Below, piece by piece: positions 5,793-34,403 of a DNA stretch of 34,403 nt. Every line of letters begins with the position of its first letter. Within the stretch, counting starts at the first letter, position 1. A model generated the notes under the pieces. That model made no database searches, was not told the DNA's origin, and saw nothing but the letters and a program-made list of their open reading frames with translations. Both the position numbers and the translations under genes were made by a program. The DNA is from Bacteroidota bacterium (GTDB lineage Bacteria; Bacteroidota; Ignavibacteria; UBA10030; UBA8401), in NCBI GenBank assembly GCA_028873075.1, contig JAGWND010000008.1, positions 1 through 34,403 of the forward strand, in the 5' to 3' direction.

Positions 5793-7256
5793 TTACCTCC
5801 AGCGGTCAACAAAATACTGCCACAGATAATCGTTGATGGAATACGGCGCGAGGTCGTAAAACACCGGTTCCCCTTCCGCTGACGGAACGCGCTGAAACGG
5901 AATTGCCAGTGTCGAGTTGCCGGCAGAATAGTACCACATTTCATTCAGCGATGCCTGACAATCAACGGCTTCAGGCGGACCACAGACAAGGTACACGATC
6001 CCCATCGGCGTTTTCCAGCCTTCCATGCACGCCGTGAACAACTCGTTTGCCTCGCGCAGCCGCTGCTGGAACATCTGCATCCGCTCGCCGCCGCCGTGCC
6101 GTTTCCAGAAACCCCCAATCACTCTTAACCGCACGCTGTCTGCCATCGGATGTCTTGCCATCATGTCGCTTGCGCGCACAAGGCTGTCTATTTCAGAGCC
6201 GCGTGCAAGAAACAACATTGCTTCCGCAAGTTCGGCAGGAGCGGTAACATCGGGAAATGACGGATCGCTCACAAACACTCTCAATGAGTTCACCGTGCTG
6301 TCCGATTTCCCTTCGTGCGTACGCACGATTGTTCGAACAATATCAACGTACCGCTGCGGCGGCTTCGGGTAGAACTGGATAAGCTGAACAGTCCCGCCTG
6401 CCTGCCCGGCAGGCAGGTTTGTCGAAGCGACGAACAACGAATCGTTATGATAAACTGTGGAATCGAATTTCAGCGAGCAAGGGCTGAATTGCTGAAAGTA
6501 TCCGAGTGCCGTCAGCTCGGCATAACTGTACAAATGGGGCAAGGCAGTTCTTGCAACTCTGTAGGAAAACGAAGCGCGCAGCGAGTCCCCGCGGTGCACA
6601 TTGTACACTTCCTGAAAAATCCCGAGGGAATCTTTACTTCCGGCGAACTGTGAGAGGAGTGACGGGAACGCCGGACGAAGCGAGATGCCGTTTGTATCAC
6701 GCACAGCATTTTCAAGAAGAAGAAAATCGCTTGCAGAAATTTTCACACGGTGAAAATTCCTCGCCGTAATTTCTTGACGCTCGCTGTACCGCAATCCTGA
6801 ACCGTCATCAACAACATTTGTCTCAAGCGTGTATCGTTCCGCCCGGCGAGTCGAATCTGCCGCCGGGAGCGGGACTGTCAGTAAAAACGCGTCGGCTCTC
6901 GGAGAGACCGATTCGTTATATGTAGGAACAATGATCGAACGCTGTACATCCTTCGTTTGAAGTACATCGTCATTTTCGCTGCGAAGAACAGCGGAAAACG
7001 TATACGACGCGGTAAACCCTCTCTCGTTTTTTTCAAAATGAAGACGACGGTACGGTAAATTGCAATAAATGTCCATCCTGCCGCTGTCTCCCGAAGCGAC
7101 ATTCATAACGTACGACGCGCATACCGGCAGCGCAAGCTTTTTATATTGCCGTGTTATGAAGCAATCCGATACGGCTTCAGAATTCGACGCGCAGCCGTTC
7201 GTCATCATCGCAACGAAAACGACACTTGCCGCTAAAAACGCCCGTCGCTGTTTCAT
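5793..7256 (-). CDS. GWxTD-domain lipoprotein
   Basis: 487 residues from the ATG at 7256. A lipoprotein signal peptide ends in the lipobox TNGC with Cys22, predicting an envelope lipoprotein. The middle is beta-rich without a clear enzyme motif. The C-terminus holds the GWxTD-type segment at about 413: GWKTPMGIVYLVCGPPEAVD, close to the family pattern GWxTDRGxxYIxyGPPD; the usual Asp after Thr is Pro here. The family is common in the Chlorobi/Ignavibacteria region and has no established function. The gene starts inside the stop of the preceding gene (ATGA, 7253-7256), so the two are probably translationally coupled. An in-frame GC-rich palindrome at 6397-6417 encodes part of NLPAGQAGG and looks like an insertion. 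Confidence 0.8.
   Translation of the reverse strand: MKQRRAFLAASVVFVAMMTNGCASNSEAVSDCFITRQYKKLALPVCASYVMNVASGDSGRMDIYCNLPYRRLHFEKNERGFTASYTFSAVLRSENDDVLQTKDVQRSIIVPTYNESVSPRADAFLLTVPLPAADSTRRAERYTLETNVVDDGSGLRYSERQEITARNFHRVKISASDFLLLENAVRDTNGISLRPAFPSLLSQFAGSKDSLGIFQEVYNVHRGDSLRASFSYRVARTALPHLYSYAELTALGYFQQFSPCSLKFDSTVYHNDSLFVASTNLPAGQAGGTVQLIQFYPKPPQRYVDIVRTIVRTHEGKSDSTVNSLRVFVSDPSFPDVTAPAELAEAMLFLARGSEIDSLVRASDMMARHPMADSVRLRVIGGFWKRHGGGERMQMFQQRLREANELFTACMEGWKTPMGIVYLVCGPPEAVDCQASLNEMWYYSAGNSTLAIPFQRVPSAEGEPVFYDLAPYSINDYLWQYFVDRWR
6397..6417. repeat. In-frame GC-rich palindrome inside the GWxTD gene
   Basis: CCTGCCTGCC (6397-6406), one central base, then GGCAGGCAGG (6408-6417): a perfect 10-bp inverted repeat within coding DNA. 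On the minus strand it encodes LPAGQAG inside TNLPAGQAGGTV, a Gly/Ala/Pro segment unlike its surroundings. It keeps the frame. Confidence 0.75.
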
Positions 7257-9550
7257 CGCTGTCTCTCACCATCCCGCGTGGATTTTTCAACAAAACTGCA
7301 TTCGTCAATCCGCTCGTCGATTTCCTGCTGAGTGAATGTCGAAGCCGAAAAATTTTTAGCTTGCCAAAACATTGCCTTTGCTTCCTCGAACGCCCCGCTT
7401 TGATAGCACGCTTTGCCGGCATGCATTGCCGCTGCAAAACGAAGTACGGGGTCATCCACTGCGTTGATTTCACTGCCCCATAATCCCGCCGCGTCCGAAA
7501 AACGCTGCATTCGTTCTAATTCCTCCGCCATCAAATATGTTGCAACGGTGCGCGTCGAGCTTTTCCGTTGAAGCGGGAGAAGCATTGCCTGCCGTGCAGA
7601 GTCGCTCATCTGGGCAAAATAAAAAACCTGAAATGACTGATTCAACAGCGGCCGGCTCACGATCGTTCGCCGCAGCGCTGCCCGCTCCGAGTACTGATCG
7701 CTGACATTCATTTCTTCAACTTTTCGATAGCGCTGAAGCGCGTCATCCGCATTGCCTTCCATCCACAACGCATCGCCGAGAAGCAGGATGACTGCAGGAT
7801 TGAATCTCAGCACCGAGCTGCGGGGCACTTGATTGAACAGGTCGACAACGCGCTGAGGTTTTCTTTGCGCCAGCAGCGATTGGAACAATCCTTGCAGTGC
7901 AAAGGCAGTCGGCGCTTCTTGGTACGAGAGGGAAAATTCATTTTCTGCTAACAAATAATCTTTCACATTTGCCGCCTGGACAGCACGCGCGTTCCGCTCC
8001 GCCGTTACACGCGCGCAGACTTTGCGAAAGATTGAAGGCTGCATGAAGAGCGTTTCTACGGTTTCGCGCGAAAGAGAGGCATCGTCAATACCGCGGAGGA
8101 AATCTTTCCACTCGCCGATCAGCACATCAAGCGGCTCACCGTAAACAATGACAAACGAACCGTCAGGAAAAACGCGCTTGAACCGCTCAACGCCGAAGCG
8201 GTCGATGAGGAAGCGGCAGAAAGAACCGGCAACGACGTACGCGAACGCGCTTTGCTGCGTCATGAATCCCATTGCGGAAAAAAGATTTCTCACTTGCGCT
8301 AATTCGTGTTCTCGCTGTAAAGCGGCGGCGTACTCATGGAGCGAATGATTTCCCCAGTGCCAGTCAATCGCCATCGCAAGCCCTTCATTCAATCCGACTG
8401 CATCGCTTGCACGAATCACCGGCAGTCCAAAATTTCCGGCAAGCGCGTGCACCAATTCATGGCGGAACGTACTACGAAACGACGAAAGCGAGAGATGAAT
8501 TTCCCGCAGCCACGGTTTCGTGATCTCGGTGTTCGCTGTTCCGATGAGGCGGCGCTTCGTTTCATCATCAGGGTAAAGATAGACGGAAATTTTTTCCCCG
8601 TACGGCAGTCGTTCCCGTAAACGTGCCGAGACGACGCTGTACGCAAACTCCGCCTCGGCTTTCAACATTCTTACTTGAGGCGGCGAGATTTGTTCCGGCG
8701 GAAGATAAAAAAAGAAATGTTCGCTCACTGCCATACCGCCGAGCGCACGATGAATATCGTCTGCGGAAAATTCAAAGTTCAGCGTATTGCGCATGAAGTG
8801 TCCTGCGGCAAGAATTGCGGCACAAACGAACGCCGCCGCAAGCAGAATGCTGTCTCCTTTCACCAAATGTAATTGACGAAGATTTTCGAGCAATGTTTGC
8901 CGCCGCGAGAAGTGTGCGAGACTAAAGAAGAAAACGATCAGGAGCAGCACTGCCGCGATAAGAGTAAACTCGCGAAACAACACGAGCGTGGAAATTCCTC
9001 CAAGCGTTTCATCGTACGTGAAACCGGGGAAATAACCGAGAATGAAATTGTATGCAAACAACTGCGGCTTGAAATAGGTGACGTACACGATCTGCAAAAG
9101 AATGGCAATCACGACGAGTGAATACATGATACGCGCATGGCGGAAGAACAACCGGATCACCATTGCAAGCGCGACAGAAAAAATCATCGTACAGGCAGGA
9201 AGGAGAAGATAATAAAGCATTCCTTCCCTGAACGAACAATTCTTCACCGCCAGCGCGTTTACGCTCATCACGAAAAAAGGAACAAGCAGGAGAAGCGTAT
9301 TCACTCTGAGATAGTCGAACGTAACGAAAAGCCACGTGCGGCGCGTGAGCGGCTTGGTAAGATGATCGTTCAAAAAACTGATCACGAGCATGCCGCTGAT
9401 GAACGCTGCGGGAATCGTCATCAGAGCGGAAAATTCAAAGCCGAGATAATTGAACAGCGGAACTTGCGTGAGCATGCCTGCGATGAGAAAATAAATCATC
9501 GCCGCATTTTGCACGGCATGAAGACGAATATAAGAACGAAGAACGCGCAT
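7253..9550 (-). CDS. Multi-pass membrane protein with HELVH peptidase-like domain and TPR tail
   Basis: 765 residues from the ATG at 9550; no Shine-Dalgarno sequence is visible. Residues 1-250 contain about six hydrophobic segments (around 15-35, 40-60, 82-102, 112-135, 143-160, 190-212, plus one near 235-252), resembling an ABC-type permease domain but without a recognised motif. From about 255 a soluble part follows with HELVH at 364-368 (HExxH zinc motif) and, about 20 residues on, LNEGLAMAIDW at 387-397, which places acidic residues where gluzincin peptidases have the third ligand. Residues from about 480 to the end are TPR-like helical repeats. Inferred role: membrane-tethered zinc-peptidase-like protein with a protein-binding tail. 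It overlaps the GWxTD lipoprotein gene by 4 bp, so the two likely work together. The substrate is unknown. Confidence 0.8.
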   Translation of the reverse strand: MRVLRSYIRLHAVQNAAMIYFLIAGMLTQVPLFNYLGFEFSALMTIPAAFISGMLVISFLNDHLTKPLTRRTWLFVTFDYLRVNTLLLLVPFFVMSVNALAVKNCSFREGMLYYLLLPACTMIFSVALAMVIRLFFRHARIMYSLVVIAILLQIVYVTYFKPQLFAYNFILGYFPGFTYDETLGGISTLVLFREFTLIAAVLLLIVFFFSLAHFSRRQTLLENLRQLHLVKGDSILLAAAFVCAAILAAGHFMRNTLNFEFSADDIHRALGGMAVSEHFFFYLPPEQISPPQVRMLKAEAEFAYSVVSARLRERLPYGEKISVYLYPDDETKRRLIGTANTEITKPWLREIHLSLSSFRSTFRHELVHALAGNFGLPVIRASDAVGLNEGLAMAIDWHWGNHSLHEYAAALQREHELAQVRNLFSAMGFMTQQSAFAYVVAGSFCRFLIDRFGVERFKRVFPDGSFVIVYGEPLDVLIGEWKDFLRGIDDASLSRETVETLFMQPSIFRKVCARVTAERNARAVQAANVKDYLLAENEFSLSYQEAPTAFALQGLFQSLLAQRKPQRVVDLFNQVPRSSVLRFNPAVILLLGDALWMEGNADDALQRYRKVEEMNVSDQYSERAALRRTIVSRPLLNQSFQVFYFAQMSDSARQAMLLPLQRKSSTRTVATYLMAEELERMQRFSDAAGLWGSEINAVDDPVLRFAAAMHAGKACYQSGAFEEAKAMFWQAKNFSASTFTQQEIDERIDECSFVEKSTRDGERQR

Positions 9551-25339: not shown

Positions 25340-28300
25340 TTAAAAATCTTCACCCAGCGAAATGTAATATTTCGGAATTGAGAATCCTGCAATGTTGTAC
25401 GACCATGCAACATCGAATCTCAGCGGCAAACCGAACAGGATAATCCGTACGCCGAATCCTGTCCCCACCAACAAATCTTTCGTTACCGTGCTGCCGGAAG
25501 GACTTTTCGCAAGCCCCTGCCACTTATCGGTGTTTGTCCACGCTGAGCCAACATCGAAAAATGTCACGCCGGTAATATTCTGAAACGCAAGCGGCACACC
25601 TCCTGTCACCAAATACTGGATCAGCGGGAAACGCAATTCGTAATTCATCAGAGCGAACTTCGTTCCGTTCTGTGCATTGTAATTGAAGCCTCGCAGCGGC
25701 AGTGCCGGGGTAAGGAATGCATAATCCGCCACGCTTTGAATCGGAATGGTATTGTTTTCGAACTCGCGGTTGATCCACCCGTCAGTTCCTCCGATGAAGA
25801 ACCTCTGCGGATTCGCCCCCAAGCTTGCGCCTCCCGACCAGCGCACGACAAAATCATAGTTATGCCAGAATGGAAAATACGTTCGGTAATCGAGCGTGAA
25901 GGTCTGGAAGTTCAACGAATTCTGTCCGAGCGACGGGCTGAACATTCCCGAAATATTATACCGTGTGCCGTTGTTCGGCGCCGTGTAGCCCCACAGCGTG
26001 TTATCGTGAATGTAGCTGATTTGCGGAATGATCAACGAACGCCGTTCTGCCGGCTCGAAATTGAAATCGAGATTCTCCATTGAAAGATTCAGCCACATCA
26101 ACTCAACATCCATCCGGTTAAATCTGTCGAACGGATACGACGCCGAGCCGCCAATGCCCCACGTTTGAAAGCGGTACAACGCAGTGCTCAACAAGTTCGG
26201 ATCATCCATGTAGAGAAAACGCGCACTGTGAAATCCTTGGATGCCGAAATCGGTGCGCTTCGGCAGATAATAATAGGCGAACATGTAATCGCTGTTTTTC
26301 AGATCGAGCAGCAGGTTTGTCAGAAAATAAATTTGATGATCACCCAACATGTCGCTGAACGCCATCGCGGTCGTTCCTTCTACTCCATAAAACGTGCTGT
26401 AGCCGGCATTCCCGTAAATGATGTCGGGCGTAAAATTGAGCTTGTATTTGTTCACTTTGTAATTGCCGTTCTCATCCATGTTGTCGGTGAGAGAAAATTT
26501 TTTGTCGTCGGAAGAGCCGAAGAGGTCGAGCTTCTTCTCTTTTTCTTTTCTCGATTCATCGGCAAAAACGTACGTGCCGAAATCAATGCGAACATTCTTC
26601 CCGTACACCCCGCTCGAATCGGCTGCAGAATTGTTCGCGGCAGCCATCGCAGTCGAATCTTTTTTCGCAGCGGTGGAATCCAATGCAGCTGCAACAGACG
26701 GGATCGGCTCGCCGATAAGGCTTTTCATAAATTCAGTCGGTTCAAGCGACGCAATGGAGAGCTTTTTTTCGAACGGAAGCTTCATCACAAAAATATCGAA
26801 TCCCGCATGATCCAGTGCCGAAAAAGCGAGCTTGCTGCCGTCGGTAGAAACCGAAAGCTGGTATACTCCGGCAATGGAATTCGTGATCGGACGATCATCT
26901 CCAGTAACGAGGTTACGCTCATAAATATTGTTGATGCCGTTGCGATCAGAAATGTAGAGCATGGTTTTACCGTCGGATGAAAGTGCGGGAGACGTTTCAT
27001 CGCTGTGCGGATAATCGGTGATGCGACGAATTTCTTTCGTCTGCACATTAATAGCGTAGAGATCTAGCTGCGAAAAATCGTAATGTGCCATCTGGAAATC
27101 CTGCGGTCGGCTTTGCAGAGAAAGATGATTACCGCGGTCCGATGAGAAATAAATCGTCGTTCCGTCAGGCGACCAAACGGGATCGGCATCTGAAAATGCG
27201 TCGTCGGTTAAATTCGTCAATTCTTTCGCCTTCAAATCATACACATAGATATCAGAGCGCTCATCTTTATCGCCGATGAACGTTAACTTATCTCCTTGGT
27301 GCGACCAATTGACGGAGAAAATTCCATCCAAACTGAATTCCAACTGCTCCTTGTCGCCGCTTGCAACATCAACTATGAAAATTGCATCCTGGTCGCCGCT
27401 CTTCACGGCAAGGGCAATTTTCTTTCCGTCCGGCGACCATGTAATTCCAGGTGTCAGCAGATGAAGCTCTTCAAAATTTTTCGTCTGCTGCCCGTTGATG
27501 ATTTTCATTACTCTATGATCAATCGTGGACATGATGTACACGTCGAAATATTCGTCTCGGTCGGAAATGAAAGCAATCTTATCGCCTTGAGGAGAAATGG
27601 CGGGGCTTGTATTGTAAAAATTGCCGTCCTTGTAGTGATCGGTCATACGCGTTGCAAAATCCGCAGGATCGTCACGCTTTGCAATGTCGGGCCAGTACAT
27701 CACCTTCAACTCTTTCTGCCAGCGCTCGTTCAATTCCGAAACGCTCAGGCCGAGCGCGCTTTTGAATCCCTGCTCCACGCTCCGCGTCGCTTTGATACGG
27801 TTGAGAATCTCTCCGATTTTCTGCTCGCCGTATTTGTTCGCGATATAATACCAGACAGATTGCCCGCCGCGGTACGCAAAGTAGCCGTTCAGGTAATCAA
27901 TGGGAACAAGATAGGTGTGAATGGTTGCATCGCGCATGAACATGTCGGAGTTCGTGTCCCATCTCAGCGATTCGTATTCCGCCAGTCCTTCGTTGAACCA
28001 CATCGGTAATTGCAAGCGAATGTTGTTCGAGATGATGGATTGAATGGAGCCGCCATAGAGCATATCGTTCAGTACCGCATGAACAAGCTCATGGTGAATG
28101 ACGTGGCGAAACATCCGGTAGTTTCCTTCAAACGGGAGAACGACTCGGTTTTTGAACAGTTCGGTCACGCCGCCGATGCCTTCCTCAAGATACTCGGAAA
28201 CGACATTCGTTTGCTGAAAGTCGTTGTGAGAATTGTACACCATAATTGAAATCCGGTTGTTGATTTGGTACCGGAAATCTTTGCTGATCATCGCGTATGC

Positions 28301-28501
28301 CGATTCCGCTGCCGCCGCGGTGAAATCTGCGAGATACTCGCCGCCGTCGCTGAAGTAAATATCGAAATGATTCGATTGAATATAGTACCAATTGAATTTT
28401 TTGTATTGGACTTTATTCTTACCGAATTCCGCGTCTTGTGCCAGTGCGTTCACCGCACACAGCGCAAGCAGAATTCCAAGAGACCATTGACGAATGTTCA
28501 T
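25340..28501 (-). CDS. HELVH peptidase-like, TolB-like propeller and Omp85-like barrel fusion
   Basis: 1053 residues from the ATG at 28501 (a GTG at 28507 is in frame but adds only two residues). Signal peptide 1-21 (ending NALAQ). Domain 1 (about 30-260): gluzincin-like zinc peptidase with HELVH at 137-141 and WFNEGLAEYES at 168-178, giving Glu175 as likely third ligand. Domain 2 (about 290-630): PD40/TolB-like beta-propeller with repeats such as WSPDGKKIALA, WSHQGDKLTF and WSPDGTTIYFSSDR. A Ser/Ala-rich linker (about 635-665) follows. Domain 3 (about 690-1053): outer-membrane barrel with the Omp85 marks LRGFNYN and NYELRFPL and a C-terminal Phe. Probable outer-membrane protein with periplasmic domains. 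It follows rnr and tamB. The role is inferred only. Confidence 0.85.
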   Translation of the reverse strand: MNIRQWSLGILLALCAVNALAQDAEFGKNKVQYKKFNWYYIQSNHFDIYFSDGGEYLADFTAAAAESAYAMISKDFRYQINNRISIMVYNSHNDFQQTNVVSEYLEEGIGGVTELFKNRVVLPFEGNYRMFRHVIHHELVHAVLNDMLYGGSIQSIISNNIRLQLPMWFNEGLAEYESLRWDTNSDMFMRDATIHTYLVPIDYLNGYFAYRGGQSVWYYIANKYGEQKIGEILNRIKATRSVEQGFKSALGLSVSELNERWQKELKVMYWPDIAKRDDPADFATRMTDHYKDGNFYNTSPAISPQGDKIAFISDRDEYFDVYIMSTIDHRVMKIINGQQTKNFEELHLLTPGITWSPDGKKIALAVKSGDQDAIFIVDVASGDKEQLEFSLDGIFSVNWSHQGDKLTFIGDKDERSDIYVYDLKAKELTNLTDDAFSDADPVWSPDGTTIYFSSDRGNHLSLQSRPQDFQMAHYDFSQLDLYAINVQTKEIRRITDYPHSDETSPALSSDGKTMLYISDRNGINNIYERNLVTGDDRPITNSIAGVYQLSVSTDGSKLAFSALDHAGFDIFVMKLPFEKKLSIASLEPTEFMKSLIGEPIPSVAAALDSTAAKKDSTAMAAANNSAADSSGVYGKNVRIDFGTYVFADESRKEKEKKLDLFGSSDDKKFSLTDNMDENGNYKVNKYKLNFTPDIIYGNAGYSTFYGVEGTTAMAFSDMLGDHQIYFLTNLLLDLKNSDYMFAYYYLPKRTDFGIQGFHSARFLYMDDPNLLSTALYRFQTWGIGGSASYPFDRFNRMDVELMWLNLSMENLDFNFEPAERRSLIIPQISYIHDNTLWGYTAPNNGTRYNISGMFSPSLGQNSLNFQTFTLDYRTYFPFWHNYDFVVRWSGGASLGANPQRFFIGGTDGWINREFENNTIPIQSVADYAFLTPALPLRGFNYNAQNGTKFALMNYELRFPLIQYLVTGGVPLAFQNITGVTFFDVGSAWTNTDKWQGLAKSPSGSTVTKDLLVGTGFGVRIILFGLPLRFDVAWSYNIAGFSIPKYYISLGEDF

Positions 28502-28549
28502 ACACACTCTATGTTGAGGTTGTTCAAATTAAAAATGGACCGCTGAATA

Positions 28550-28602
28550 TTGAGCATTGAATATTTCCCTTCACGTCAAGCAATGAAATGTTCAATGTTC
28601 AA
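28550..28602. repeat. Imperfect inverted repeat of ATTGAA-type words
   Basis: TTGAGCATTGAATATTT (28550-28566) and AAATGTTCAATGTTCAA (28586-28602) pair at 15 of 17 positions, within word-like DNA (GAATATTGAGCATTGAATA). It occupies the 169-bp gap between rnr and the fusion gene. No gene is seen there. Confidence 0.6.
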
Positions 28603-28670
28603 CTCTCAATTCCCAACGCCTATCAGCTAAACTTTTATACATTTCAACGCATCTATGTTCTGAAAAGTGC

Positions 28671-30887
28671 CTATGTGTGTTTTTGTTTCTTTTTCTTCTT
28701 CGCTTTTGAAGCCGCTTCAGGCACATATGCGAAATCAATTTCGCGGTTTTCCACATCAACGCGCATCACACGAACTCTAATCGGATCGCCTAACCGGAAC
28801 GCACGCCCGTGCCGCTGTCCGACGAGCGAGTATTGTTTTTCATTGTGAATATAATAATCATCGTCAATATTGCGCACGTGGAGCATTCCTTCGACAAGCA
28901 GCTCGTTGATTTCGATAAAGATTCCGAAATGTGTGACACCGGAGATAATTCCATCGAACTCATCGCCCATGTGCTGCTTCATGTATTCCGCCTGCATCAC
29001 TTTCACTGATGCGCGCTCGGCTTCCATTGCAACGCGCTCTCGTTCCGACGACCAGCGGCCCATCTCCGGCAGGCGCGAGATATAATGTTTCCGCCGCGCC
29101 GGCGCCATTCCCCGCGCGTATTCTTCCAACATTCTGTGAACGATCAAATCGGGGTAACGGCGGATCGGCGACGTGAAGTGCGTGTAGTAATCGAATCCTA
29201 AACCGTAGTGCCCTATGTTCTTTTCAGAATATACCGCTTTTGCCATTGACCGTAAAGCGACTTCGGTGATCACATTTTCTTCCGGCGTCCCTTTCACATC
29301 ATTCAACAGCTTCTGCAATGCTTTAGACGAAACAGACGACGACACGTTTAACGCATAGCCGAACTTCTGCACGAAGAGAGCAAGCTCGCGGAGCTTCTCC
29401 ATATCCGGCGCATTGTGAACGCGGTACATAAACGGTAAAATATTCTTTACCTGTTTAGACATCCCGATATGCTTCGCAACGGTTTGATTTGCCATCAGCA
29501 TACATTCTTCCACAAGCTGATGGCTTTTCAGCCGTTCTTTAACGATGATGGCAATTGGCTTTCCCGATGTATCATACCGGAATTTTGCTTCGCGCGTATC
29601 GAAATCAACGCTGCCGCTTTTCATGCGTTTCTTGCGAAGCGTTGAGGCGAGCGACCACACCTGCGATAGCTCGCGGACAAAATCTCCTTCGCCGCTGTCG
29701 AGAATTTTCTCCACTTCTTCGTACGTAAACCGGCGCTTCGAGTTGATGACACTTTTCTCAATCGAATAGGCGATAACTTTTCCTTGCGCAGAAATATCCA
29801 TGAAGCACGTGTATGCCAGCCGGTCAACGCGCGGGTTAAGGCTGCACACATTGTTCGACAATTTTTCCGGCAGCATCGGCACAACTTGATTGGCAAGATA
29901 GACGCTTGTGCCGCGCTTGTACGCTTCGGCATCGAGCGGTGTGTTTTCTTTCACGTACGCGCTGACGTCAGCGATGTGCACTCCCAGGCGGAAGGTTTCG
30001 CCGTCAAACTGCTCGATTGAAATTGCGTCATCGAAATCTTTTGCATCAAAAGGGTCAATCGTAAAGCAAACAAGCGAACGGAGATCGGTGCGGAGCGCAA
30101 TTTCTTCTTCCGGAATTCTCTCCGGGATTTTTCTCACGTATTCTTCCACTTCGTGCGGAAAGCTATTCGGAAGATGAAACGCTTTGATCACCGACGTGAT
30201 CTCCGCGCTCACTTCACCTGCGCGTCCGATAATCTCGACAATTGCTCCTTCAGGATTCAGGAGATCGGACTCCCATGATTCAAACTTCACGACAACTTTG
30301 TCGCCCGGGCGCGCGCCATTGACCTTGTCCTGCGGAATATAAATGTCACGCGGCACGGTATTGTCATCGGGAATAACAAAAAAGAAATTCTTGCTTTGCT
30401 CCAGCGTACCGACAATTTCGGAATTTGCCCGCAGCAGCACGGAAACGATTTCTCCTTCGCGCCGCTCGTCTTTATTCTTCGGATGTTTCTTATGGGCGGC
30501 AAAGAGCGCCACTTCAACCGTATCGCCGCTCATTCCCGTGCCGAGGAACTTCGGGCCGATATAAATCTCGTTGTGCCTATCGCCGTCAACGGAAACAATA
30601 CCGTGACCCTGTTTGAATATCGTCAGCGTTCCTTGTTGAAAACCCCGTTCGGGAATGACAGCCGACGACGAACCCTTTTTGTTTGCAGGCGGGCGGCGGA
30701 AATATCCTTTGCCACGCGTGTGCGACAATACTTTTTCATCCACCATCGAGTGGAGCACGGTGCGCAGTGTTTGAAATGTTTCTTCATCGCGGATGCCAAG
30801 CCGCCGCGCCACTTGACGGGATTTCAGTGCTTGATGCGGATGCGCATCGAAAAATTCTACAACACGTCGTTTGATTGTATCACTCAC
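28671..30887 (-). CDS. rnr: Ribonuclease R
   Basis: 738 residues from the GTG at 30887, with AGGTGA (30895-30900) 7 nt upstream. Layout: winged-helix N-terminus (about 1-65), two OB/cold-shock-like domains (about 80-245), catalytic RNB domain (about 262-590) with the metal-binding cluster DPFDAKDFDDAIS (Asp278, Asp284, Asp286, Asp287) and a conserved HYGLGFDYYTHFTSPIRRYPDL segment, then an S1 domain (about 640-720) and a short basic tail KKKKKQKHT. Known role: processive 3'-5' exoribonuclease that degrades structured RNA and takes part in RNA quality control. It lies 85 bp downstream of tamB and upstream of the barrel fusion gene. Confidence 0.95.
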   Translation of the reverse strand: MSDTIKRRVVEFFDAHPHQALKSRQVARRLGIRDEETFQTLRTVLHSMVDEKVLSHTRGKGYFRRPPANKKGSSSAVIPERGFQQGTLTIFKQGHGIVSVDGDRHNEIYIGPKFLGTGMSGDTVEVALFAAHKKHPKNKDERREGEIVSVLLRANSEIVGTLEQSKNFFFVIPDDNTVPRDIYIPQDKVNGARPGDKVVVKFESWESDLLNPEGAIVEIIGRAGEVSAEITSVIKAFHLPNSFPHEVEEYVRKIPERIPEEEIALRTDLRSLVCFTIDPFDAKDFDDAISIEQFDGETFRLGVHIADVSAYVKENTPLDAEAYKRGTSVYLANQVVPMLPEKLSNNVCSLNPRVDRLAYTCFMDISAQGKVIAYSIEKSVINSKRRFTYEEVEKILDSGEGDFVRELSQVWSLASTLRKKRMKSGSVDFDTREAKFRYDTSGKPIAIIVKERLKSHQLVEECMLMANQTVAKHIGMSKQVKNILPFMYRVHNAPDMEKLRELALFVQKFGYALNVSSSVSSKALQKLLNDVKGTPEENVITEVALRSMAKAVYSEKNIGHYGLGFDYYTHFTSPIRRYPDLIVHRMLEEYARGMAPARRKHYISRLPEMGRWSSERERVAMEAERASVKVMQAEYMKQHMGDEFDGIISGVTHFGIFIEINELLVEGMLHVRNIDDDYYIHNEKQYSLVGQRHGRAFRLGDPIRVRVMRVDVENREIDFAYVPEAASKAKKKKKQKHT

Positions 30888-30972
30888 AAATTTTTCACCT
30901 GTGTAAATATGATAGCCGCAGGCTTTATCTCTGTGAAACCGTGCGGAAGCTAAAGAGTGCGGCTACAATTCC

Positions 30973-33900
30973 TTAAAAAATAATCCTGTAATATAAGCGG
31001 ATGCCGCTCGTCGGCCGTCGGGGATCGCTCGGCTCCACCGACTCGACTTTGCGGTTCACTTCAAGCATCAGATTGCGAAGCTTCTGATCGCCCGTGACCG
31101 AACTCAGCGGCAATTGCACGCTGATGTTCGCATTATTAATGTCGTTGAACACTTTTCCGCCGAACGACCAGTACGCGTCGGCGACCTCGCCGCTCAGCCG
31201 CAAATCTGTTTCCGCGCCGACGGAACGGACTTCCGCACTCGACACGAACGAAATGTTGTTCGAGCGCATAAAATCCATCAACATACCGGAGAGCATTGTA
31301 TTCGCGAAACCGGAAATAACGGAATAGCCGATCGCGCCGCCGACACCTAAATTGTTAGCGATGCCTTGCTTATCGTTCGATGTCAAATCGTCGCGGAATT
31401 TCCCCGGCGTTCCTGCCGATGAAGTCAGCAAAAATGCAATTGCGTCGGCTTCTACGTCGCCGGTTCGCTCCGTTTGAATATTGTTATTGTCAATCGTGGA
31501 AAGACCGATCTTCACTTTCGGCTCGTAGCGCGTTCCGGAGATCACCAGCGAAACAACAACTTTTTCCGTTGTCGAATCGTTTACCAAATGCGTTCCGTTG
31601 TACTGCGCGTTGATGTCTAACTTCGGGTTGTCGGACGGTCCGGTGAATGACAGGCTCCCGCTTGCATCAAATTGTTTGTAGAACTGATAATGTGAACGGT
31701 CGGAGACATTAATCGTCCCCGTTAGACGAACGTCTTTCCCTTCCTTGCTCAAGTTCAACTTTCCGTTCAAATCGGCAAACAGTTCTTCGTTTGTCGCTGC
31801 ATTGAAGATCATCGTGATTTGCACAACACCTTGGGTCTGAATCGTGAGGTCGTACGCAAGTCCGTCAAGAAATGAAGGCTCCGCAATGTACCGCATCGCG
31901 CTCTTTCGCCGGGCAAGCGCTTGAAGGCTCTGCTGAAGCAGCGTCCCAACGTGCTGCTTTGTGGTATCGTCAATAATTGTCACGCTTGCAAATCGTGAGG
32001 AGGCTGACGTTCCGCTCGCAGAGCGGGTCGGCGGAAACACAAGCTGTGCCTGCTTCACGTAGATCGTGCCGGTGACATTCGAATGAACATAGTCGCCTTC
32101 AAACCGAATGCCATCGTCGCCGGTGGAGGCAACGAGATCGCCATAAACCGATGGTGTCGCCGCACGAGACGCTTTCTGCAGCACCATCAATTCCCCTTTC
32201 GCAAGAAGATGAAATGCCGACGGCACAAAACCGCCCATCATCACGGAGCCGTCGAGTGTGACTTTCCCCTTGCGCCAATCATTCTGTGTATTCGAGATCG
32301 TAAACTGTGAAAAGAGAATCGAGCTGTCGCGAAACTGCACGGCACCGTTTACTTGATACACGATGTTGTTCAACATCATTCTGAACTCCCCGTCACTCAG
32401 CAACGTCGAGCCGTTGAAGACCGGGGCTGAAAGGGAGCCGCCGAAGAGAACGGAGCCTGTCATTGTTCCGCTCAATTCCTCAACATCGGGAATGAAAGGG
32501 CTAAGAATGCTGATTTGAAATCCGTTTACCGTGAAGCGAAGATCAAGCCCCGGCAAATCAAAACGATGTTCGACCGCTGCGAGCGAAAGATCTACCGGCA
32601 TTATTCCTGTTAATAGAAGCTGTCGCTCGCTCCCGCTTCCTCCTCCGGCTTGCTCCCGATACAACGCAACTTGAACGTCCGCTCTTTTATCGTGATAGAA
32701 CACAGCGGCATCAATCGTCCCAAAATACGAATCGCGGTAGATAACATCGCCAGCAACGACATGCGCCCGGATGATCGGTTTTTCCATTGTTCCTGAAATC
32801 GTACACGTACCCTGTACCGTTCCTCCGAATGCCAAGGCTTCCTGTTTGAAGCTCTGTGATCCTCCCGCATAATATAAATCGCCGACAGAATAATTCTGAA
32901 GATTCATAAACCCGCTGACGGCACCATGAAAGTTAAGCTCGCCGCCAACGCTCAACCGCTCATCTTGATGAGTGAACACCACGGAATCGAGCCTGACACC
33001 GGCAGGCGTAACTGCCGCCGTGAGCGGAGATGCGTTGTTCAATTCATACCCTTGATAGCGGAGAGAACAGCGATCAAGCTGAAGACGATATCCCGACAGT
33101 TCGGGATGTACTTCAAGATGTCCGCCGAGGCTGACATCGAGCGTCGTATCGAGCGAGCCGGAAATCGCATACTTACCGACACGATTATGATAGACATAAT
33201 CCACCGACGCTTTTCTGAACTGCGTTTCTCCTAAAAAGATATTATCAGCAGCAAGTTTGAGCCTCACAATGGGACCGTCGAAAGAGGAGAGCAAGCTATC
33301 AGGACGAAGATTATTGAAATGAAACAACGCGGTGCCGTTTTCTACAACAAGAAATCCCGATTGGGACGAAAGCGGATAGCGGCCGGAACGAACCGCGATG
33401 TTTCCTTCTGCAGAAAGAGAATCTCTCGTGCCGATCAGTGTGCCGGCGATTGAACCCGTGACAGTGCAGCCGTTTTCGCCGAACAAAAAAACGACCGGCT
33501 CAATGTCCTTCACATCTAATGAGTAATGGAGCCGCTGAACAGTTTGCACGGATTCATCCCGAGCAGAATAATTCTTCTCCCCTGTATCTGTTGAAAGATT
33601 CGCCGCCGTAGAATCGAACATTGCGCGCTGCGCACGATACGTTTTCGAGAAACCCCGCACCTGTGCCCTGATAATCTCGATAAGACTTTGATATGAAAAC
33701 ACGCCGTTCACAGAAAGATCCGCTACGGGAGAATGCAGCTCGATCAACTTCTGGCGAAGAGAATCCTGTGCGACTTTCATCGCCGCTCTGCCCCCTTCAA
33801 AAATGTGCGACCCGAAACGAGAGCGGTCGAATTGCAGCCACGCATCGGCGTTTGTTTCTTCGAGCGAAAGGTTTTTTCCCTGTATGCCGAATGTCAGCGA

Positions 33901-34403
33901 ACAATCGGAACTGAATTGCTCTTCTTTCAAGAACGGAGAGAAATCGAAATGGGTGATGCCGCCGCTCACTGTATAGCTTGCTGCTTCTCTCGCATGCTGC
34001 ATCCCCCCACGGGAAAAATCTACGGTACCGTTAACCGATGCCGAGCCATGCGCTGAAGCGAGCGATATTTCCGTCCGAATAATTTTCTTCTGCACCGAAA
34101 CCGTTACAGCCGCGCGATGCACTTCGATGGAATGAATGAGCGAGGAGTCCACCACGACGGCTGCCGTCGAACTCAAATCGTCCAACGACGTCCCTTCCCC
34201 GCGGATTGACGCTGAAAAATTCACTCGGGAATTGAGAGAAGCTGCCGGAAAGAACCGCGCAAGGTTAACAGCCTCCCCTTTTGCAGTCGCTTCGTATCTC
34301 ATTGCAGCGCCGGTAAGATTCATTGACGCATCGGCAGAGAGAGCGCCGGCGGCCGTTTGAGCACTCACGGTTGCCTGGAAATCGAGCGGCTTTCCGATGT
34401 AAT
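30973..34403 (-). CDS. tamB: TamB/DUF490-family translocation and assembly protein, 5' end outside window
   Basis: At least 1143 residues. The reading frame is open to the right edge, so the N-terminus (signal anchor) lies outside. Long beta-rich repeats of the AsmA/TamB type run throughout, for example SLSAEGNIAVRSGRYPLSS and DGSVMMGGFVPSAFHLLAKG. The last part is the DUF490 domain: LNIDAQYN-like segments (LDINAQYNGTHLVND), VSLVISGTRYEPKVKIGLST, then DAIAFLLTS and a final KVFNDINNANISVQLPLSS, ending LYYRIIF. Known role of the family: inner-membrane-anchored bridge that moves lipids or assists outer-membrane protein insertion, with an Omp85-type partner (TamA). Here the nearest Omp85-like gene is 25340-28501, two genes downstream. 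Confidence 0.9.
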   Translation of the reverse strand, partial: YIGKPLDFQATVSAQTAAGALSADASMNLTGAAMRYEATAKGEAVNLARFFPAASLNSRVNFSASIRGEGTSLDDLSSTAAVVVDSSLIHSIEVHRAAVTVSVQKKIIRTEISLASAHGSASVNGTVDFSRGGMQHAREAASYTVSGGITHFDFSPFLKEEQFSSDCSLTFGIQGKNLSLEETNADAWLQFDRSRFGSHIFEGGRAAMKVAQDSLRQKLIELHSPVADLSVNGVFSYQSLIEIIRAQVRGFSKTYRAQRAMFDSTAANLSTDTGEKNYSARDESVQTVQRLHYSLDVKDIEPVVFLFGENGCTVTGSIAGTLIGTRDSLSAEGNIAVRSGRYPLSSQSGFLVVENGTALFHFNNLRPDSLLSSFDGPIVRLKLAADNIFLGETQFRKASVDYVYHNRVGKYAISGSLDTTLDVSLGGHLEVHPELSGYRLQLDRCSLRYQGYELNNASPLTAAVTPAGVRLDSVVFTHQDERLSVGGELNFHGAVSGFMNLQNYSVGDLYYAGGSQSFKQEALAFGGTVQGTCTISGTMEKPIIRAHVVAGDVIYRDSYFGTIDAAVFYHDKRADVQVALYREQAGGGSGSERQLLLTGIMPVDLSLAAVEHRFDLPGLDLRFTVNGFQISILSPFIPDVEELSGTMTGSVLFGGSLSAPVFNGSTLLSDGEFRMMLNNIVYQVNGAVQFRDSSILFSQFTISNTQNDWRKGKVTLDGSVMMGGFVPSAFHLLAKGELMVLQKASRAATPSVYGDLVASTGDDGIRFEGDYVHSNVTGTIYVKQAQLVFPPTRSASGTSASSRFASVTIIDDTTKQHVGTLLQQSLQALARRKSAMRYIAEPSFLDGLAYDLTIQTQGVVQITMIFNAATNEELFADLNGKLNLSKEGKDVRLTGTINVSDRSHYQFYKQFDASGSLSFTGPSDNPKLDINAQYNGTHLVNDSTTEKVVVSLVISGTRYEPKVKIGLSTIDNNNIQTERTGDVEADAIAFLLTSSAGTPGKFRDDLTSNDKQGIANNLGVGGAIGYSVISGFANTMLSGMLMDFMRSNNISFVSSAEVRSVGAETDLRLSGEVADAYWSFGGKVFNDINNANISVQLPLSSVTGDQKLRNLMLEVNRKVESVEPSDPRRPTSGIRLYYRIIF

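Follow-up and report, generated by a model that had tools for sequence, protein, structure and literature searches.

What does an Omp85-like barrel do when it carries a zinc-peptidase-like domain and a TolB-like propeller and has no visible POTRA domain, and does its place near tamB, whose usual partner is an Omp85 protein, tell us its function? The gene that raises these questions lies in a window of 34,403 bases, the whole of one contig (C105) of a draft genome that has 347 contigs and is rated 100% complete. A preliminary description, made from the letters of the window, suggested that the product may be a lineage-specific TamA substitute that combines quality control with assembly.

The open reading frame occupies 25340..28507 on the minus strand, as do all the features given below, and encodes 1055 aa counted from a GTG at 28507; an in-frame ATG two codons on, at 28501, is the more likely start. 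Residues 1–24 (28436..28507) look like a signal peptide on inspection, end in LLALCAVNALAQ and are modeled as a helix over residues 5–16, and the end of this stretch (AVNALAQ) lacks a lipobox Cys. A predicted gluzincin (Peptidase MA) domain follows at residues 40–284 (27656..28390), with a Pfam Peptidase_MA_2 match over residues 67–267 (E 2.9e-15, 57 bits against a cut-off of 32.4). It contains the zinc-binding and catalytic motif HELVH at residues 139–143 (28079..28093) and, within WFNEGLAEY, Glu173 (27989..27991), presumed from the gluzincin pattern to be the third zinc ligand. With the domain match, the HExxH and the downstream Glu all present, the assignment to Peptidase MA is secure at the level of sequence, and the domain holds every residue expected of an active zinc peptidase. 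Residues 299–576 (26780..27613) form a predicted six-bladed TolB-like propeller, indicated by PD40 repeats (E 3e-24, above the gathering cut-off), by the TolB model TIGR02800, by Foldseek and by the strands of the predicted structure. An Ala/Ser/Asp-rich linker at residues 600–669 (26501..26710), predicted to be disordered (pLDDT <50), leads to a barrel at residues 692–1051 (25355..26434), where the Pfam Omp85 model matches residues 773–1038 (E 6.2e-13, above the gathering cut-off).

The AlphaFold model of the fusion has a mean pLDDT of 80. The gluzincin region is mixed alpha/beta, the last of the six propeller blades has three strands, and the barrel has 16 long strands, an even number, with loop L6 (residues 897–949) between strands 11 and 12. 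Foldseek returned TolB as the best match of the propeller (E 2e-13) and the barrels of BamA and TamA for the barrel (E ~1e-11). Omp85 proteins are defined by a lid-lock that pairs RG(Y/F) at the tip of L6 with (F/G)xDxG on strand 13 (PMC4490367). Both halves are found at the expected loop and strand: PLRGF at residues 937–941 (25685..25699), with R939 in L6, and FxDxG (F983, D985 and G987; 25547..25561) on the strand spanning residues 979–990. Since the key residues R939, G940, F983, D985 and G987 are invariant in 41 of 41 orthologues, we assign the predicted barrel to the Omp85 type. Pfam and AlphaFold thus agree on the three domains first described, as does Foldseek on the propeller and the barrel, and the type of the barrel, which had been set as a test, is borne out by the 16 strands, the full lid-lock and the matches to BamA and TamA. 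The reported absence of POTRA domains also holds, as Pfam gave none at E<=1 anywhere in the 1055 residues and none is evident among the elements of the model.

We aligned 41 full-length orthologues and made a second residue count over 48. H139, E140, L141 and H143 are invariant in both sets, and E173 is invariant in all 48. The two residues whose conservation the preliminary description had proposed to check, His137 and Glu138, are H139 and E140 here; the numbers differ because the earlier count began at the ATG at 28501 instead of the GTG at 28507. Among 50-residue blocks of the protein, 101–150 is the most conserved, with a mean top-residue frequency of 0.86; values for the barrel blocks lie between 0.56 and 0.76. 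This block and the invariant HELVH and E173 imply selection on the active site. Peptidase_MA_2 and PD40 are both matched in 41/41 orthologues, but the barrel is so divergent that no more than 12 of the 41 match the Omp85 model. Elsewhere in the window, at 5793–9550 (-), a 765-aa membrane protein matches Peptidase_MA_2 weakly, at a level under the cut-off (E 0.0025), and its gene is immediately upstream of one for a GWxTD-domain protein.

The genome has eight Omp85 matches, the window fusion included. The others are BamA (C240), a protein with POTRA that NCBIfam matches best to TamL (C249; 201 bits, against 107 bits for TamA), a three-POTRA protein (C27), a patatin-POTRA-Omp85 protein of 994 aa similar to PlpD and FplA (C177, L012:8335-11319), two further barrels, one without POTRA (C159) and one with a single POTRA (C324), and a second peptidase-propeller-barrel fusion (C153). 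A third fusion, C315 (FUS3), combines peptidase and propeller with a diverged barrel that falls below the Pfam threshold and whose lid-lock is degenerate. The genome therefore has three fusions (those of the window, C153 and C315) against one tamB.

Contrary to what had been supposed, the fusion family is not confined to one lineage. It was found in 60/60 sampled genomes of the order, for a few of which only a paralogue is listed, and in 132 of the 198 genomes of a sample of the phylum, among them all those sampled from the class. Named loci with a fusion come from Ignavibacteria, Chloroherpetonaceae, Thermochlorobacter, Rhodothermales and Calditrichota; the family is ancient, widespread and phylum-wide. 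A tree of 58 members separates the window subfamily, C153-like and C315-like groups, a group that carries HExxH and comes from distant genomes in the phylum, and a clade of 20 sequences (18 different; SH-aLRT 100), all of which lack HExxH. Full-length relatives in this clade are L144, L145, L147, L157-L163 and L165-L172. We call it Bacteroidia-like on the basis of its PorU/PorV scores and of kinship labels. The tree places a single loss of HExxH, in this clade; a second apparent change, at row L153, concerns a sequence that does carry HELVH and was missed by a strict text pattern. Where columns could be aligned, RGF is kept in most members of the clade and FxDxG in many. A whole related clade has thus retained the fold and, for the most part, the lid-lock after losing HExxH, which suggests that not every member of the family needs proteolysis.

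Has such an architecture been described before? Omp85 proteins without POTRA domains are an accepted class, and sequence clustering has delineated a WD40-Omp85 subfamily, which was compared with a BamA-BamB fusion (Heinz and Lithgow, 2014; PMC4104836). Compared by description, our protein agrees with that subfamily in its N-terminal TolB-like propeller before a POTRA-less Omp85 barrel, features that it has by both sequence and predicted structure. The 2014 account names no peptidase, the word 'peptidase' having no match in its main text, and differs in this from the family studied here, in which all 41 aligned orthologues of the fusion have an intact gluzincin domain before the propeller. In the open-access literature we found no paper beyond PMC4104836 on an architecture joining Omp85 with Peptidase MA, a propeller, HExxH or a gluzincin. 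We therefore identify the fusion as a peptidase-bearing variant of WD40-Omp85, a sparsely described subfamily to which we assign it by description, and one that by sequence includes a pseudoprotease clade and a paralogue linked to type IX secretion. The Pfam family PF00149 we take to be that of the calcineurin-like phosphoesterases, not a protease family. It defines the 'Metallo' Omp85 subfamily (PMC4104836, section 10); the true zinc-peptidase Omp85 fusion may be the group studied here. BamP of the F. johnsoniae BAM complex was considered as a homologue and rejected, as the text of the paper mentions neither a peptidase nor a propeller.

The reading that we prefer, at a probability of roughly 0.5, is that the fusion is an outer-membrane-anchored periplasmic metalloprotease or chaperone for the quality control of envelope proteins. 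We infer this role as the most likely one and consider it reasonable. The protein would be secreted and then folded into the outer membrane, with the barrel as its anchor. As both ends of the barrel would face the periplasm, the peptidase and propeller would hang there, as the patatin domain of PlpD does. The propeller would bind or select partners or unfolded clients, the peptidase, held near the barrel, would degrade or process outer-membrane or exported proteins that had been misassembled, and the barrel might engage clients through its seam. Its closest functional analogue would be BepA, an M48 metallopeptidase that acts on LptD and BamA at BAM (PMC8423444) and is likewise a zinc protease in outer-membrane quality control; unlike the periplasmic BepA, the fusion has a domain of the MA superfamily and a barrel anchor of its own. 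It would work beside BAM and the TamL-like/TamB pair, not as their replacement.

A broader version of this proposal, which we hold only tentatively, extends it to the whole phylum. Members of the family would be self-anchored outer-membrane proteases whose Omp85 barrel is the site that engages clients, and failed clients of the outer membrane or of the type IX secretion system (T9SS) would be passed to the fused zinc peptidase. The Bacteroidia-like clade would then hold pseudoproteases that kept the barrel motifs, and one paralogue would be dedicated to the porU-porV locus.

Alternatively, the protease could be displayed on the cell surface, the barrel exporting its own peptidase and propeller in the manner of an autotransporter, with the linker in the pore. 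The disordered linker between propeller and barrel, about 70 residues long, could thread the barrel and keeps this explanation in contention, and the C315 paralogue lies beside the surface-anchoring genes porU and porV. We nevertheless regard display as unlikely. Two large folded domains would need to cross, and the FxDxG of the fusion is the form reported for insertases, not the GxDxG of the secretion protein FhaC (PMC4490367). PlpD, in which a hydrolase domain is likewise fused before an Omp85 barrel, was once thought to display its enzyme but keeps it in the periplasm (PMC11116518). The likeness to PlpD ends at the domains themselves, PlpD having POTRA and a phospholipase and the fusion a zinc peptidase and a propeller, and the genome has its own patatin-POTRA-Omp85 protein.

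The propeller invites a different comparison. TolB is six-bladed too and is the best match of the fusion by Foldseek and by sequence, and the genome, at its rated completeness, has no canonical TolB (no TIGR02800 match over cut-off and no TolB_N, PF04052), so that its best matches to the TolB model are the fusions themselves. The barrel-anchored propeller could on this evidence stand in for TolB, binding Pal or OmpA-like lipoproteins and tying the outer membrane to the peptidoglycan, with the peptidase secondary. PD40 propellers are promiscuous, however, and the peptidase block, not the propeller, is the most conserved part of the fusion. No canonical Pal over cut-off was found in the genome either, which leaves the analogy without its partner. 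Nor is a canonical TolB hidden within the fusion, a candidate that we rejected: the TIGR02800 match (8e-46, 156.7 bits) is under the equivalog cut-off of 343.15, and TolB_N is missing. A role as a substitute for TolB is therefore improbable.

The C315 paralogue brings in type IX secretion. It carries HEFTH and WFAEGVAQY (L021:3303-12000; also L180-L191), and its gene stands in the order porU-porV-M6i-fusion at 13/13 loci examined in the order, the window genome included; the same 300-residue gene mostly follows. The cluster of the window genome contains porV (254 bits, cut-off 250), porU as a cut fragment (351 bits, below the 420-bit cut-off) and an M6-like gene over cut-off. In distant genomes, the relatives without HExxH lie within about 3–4 genes of porU at 3 of 6 loci. 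This suggests a role in type IX secretion for parts of the family, with the window gene not directly concerned. It makes the C315 paralogue a candidate accessory protein of that system, pointing to a more specialized role at least for this paralogue. Whether the whole family, window member included, handles T9SS clients is doubtful, as the window subfamily adjoins tamB-rnr or ileS-lspA-rluD-like genes and not T9SS genes.

What, then, of tamB? The three genes are transcribed from the minus strand in the order tamB, rnr, fusion; 85 bases separate the first two and 163 the last two. The shared run of genes with tamB was correctly reported, but the two do not adjoin: the RNase R gene rnr (28671..30887; TIGR02063 781 bits, over cut-off) sits between them. 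Between rnr and the fusion, counts of terminators and promoters were no better than in shuffled sequences. The end of the contig cuts tamB, leaving its C-terminal ~1142 aa in the window (30973..34401); the 5' end, encoding the first ~380 residues, is on contig C49, behind both halves of hldE. PF04357, the TamB/DUF490 C-terminal domain, has no Pfam match on the window copy alone, yet it matches 7 of 14 tamB orthologues, and the TamB model NF047952 matches all 14. Foldseek with the predicted structure returned the TamAB complex (5.6e-8) and also the TamB beta-taco, and sequence and model together confirm the identification of the gene as tamB.

We surveyed the neighborhood in named relatives, taken from GTDB species genomes, at 42 loci with sufficient upstream sequence. 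At 23 of these, rnr precedes the fusion, and tamB precedes rnr in 19/19 rnr-fusion loci whose contig extends that far. The envelope genes around the fusion at such syntenic loci are hldE1-hldE2 (the hldE halves) and tamB, followed by rnr. The remaining 19 loci place the fusion beside different genes, such as a run that on inspection resembles ileS-lspA-rluD. With the tamB-rnr order at only 23 of 42 loci and other neighbors at 19, the adjacency is regional synteny.

The fusion does resemble TamA and TamL in having an Omp85 barrel with the RGF/FxDxG lid-lock and, in some genomes of the order, a location close to tamB. Unlike them, it has no POTRA domain (against three), lacks the lipobox that marks TamL and has an additional peptidase and propeller, and the same genomes have a separate TamL-like gene. 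Matches to the TamL model at E<=1e-20 occur in 60/60 sampled genomes of the order, only 6 of which exceed the NCBIfam cut-off; the fusion itself scores 24.4 bits against a cut-off of 400. The preliminary description had named, as one observation that would refute substitution, a separate canonical TamA encoded next to its partner. This holds only in part: the TamL-like C249 is present, although its gene does not adjoin tamB and its product shows no lipobox. In Bacteroidota, it is usual for tamL and tamB not to share an operon (PMC12045153). In profile comparisons the fusion barrel is about equally near to the POTRA-less C159 (1.7e-7) and the TamL-like C249 (8.9e-7), and farther from BamA (6.5e-4). 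That the fusion barrel is TamB's outer-membrane partner, with the peptidase adding quality control, is consistent with the conserved gene order, the Omp85-type barrel with FxDxG and the single-copy tamB, but the other Omp85 proteins, the distribution of TamL, the synteny, with the fusion kept apart from tamB and across the phylum, the three paralogues, the missing POTRA domains and a barrel that is not specifically TamA-like make it very improbable, and we rejected it as the main reading.

New here are the peptidase motif, invariant in 48/48 orthologues, its single loss in the Bacteroidia-like clade and the paralogue in the porU-porV cluster at 13/13 loci. The Omp85 scaffold has so far been known as an insertase, a translocase and, recently, a lipase anchor. 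If the reading of the fusion as an anchored quality-control protease is true, a zinc protease fused to Omp85 would be a built-in quality-control or processing enzyme of the outer membrane, with an active site that stays invariant in Ignavibacteria, Chlorobi-type and Rhodothermales lineages. For outer-membrane biogenesis in the Bacteroidota there are two testable leads: one clade has lost the active site, and one paralogue holds a fixed position in a T9SS locus.
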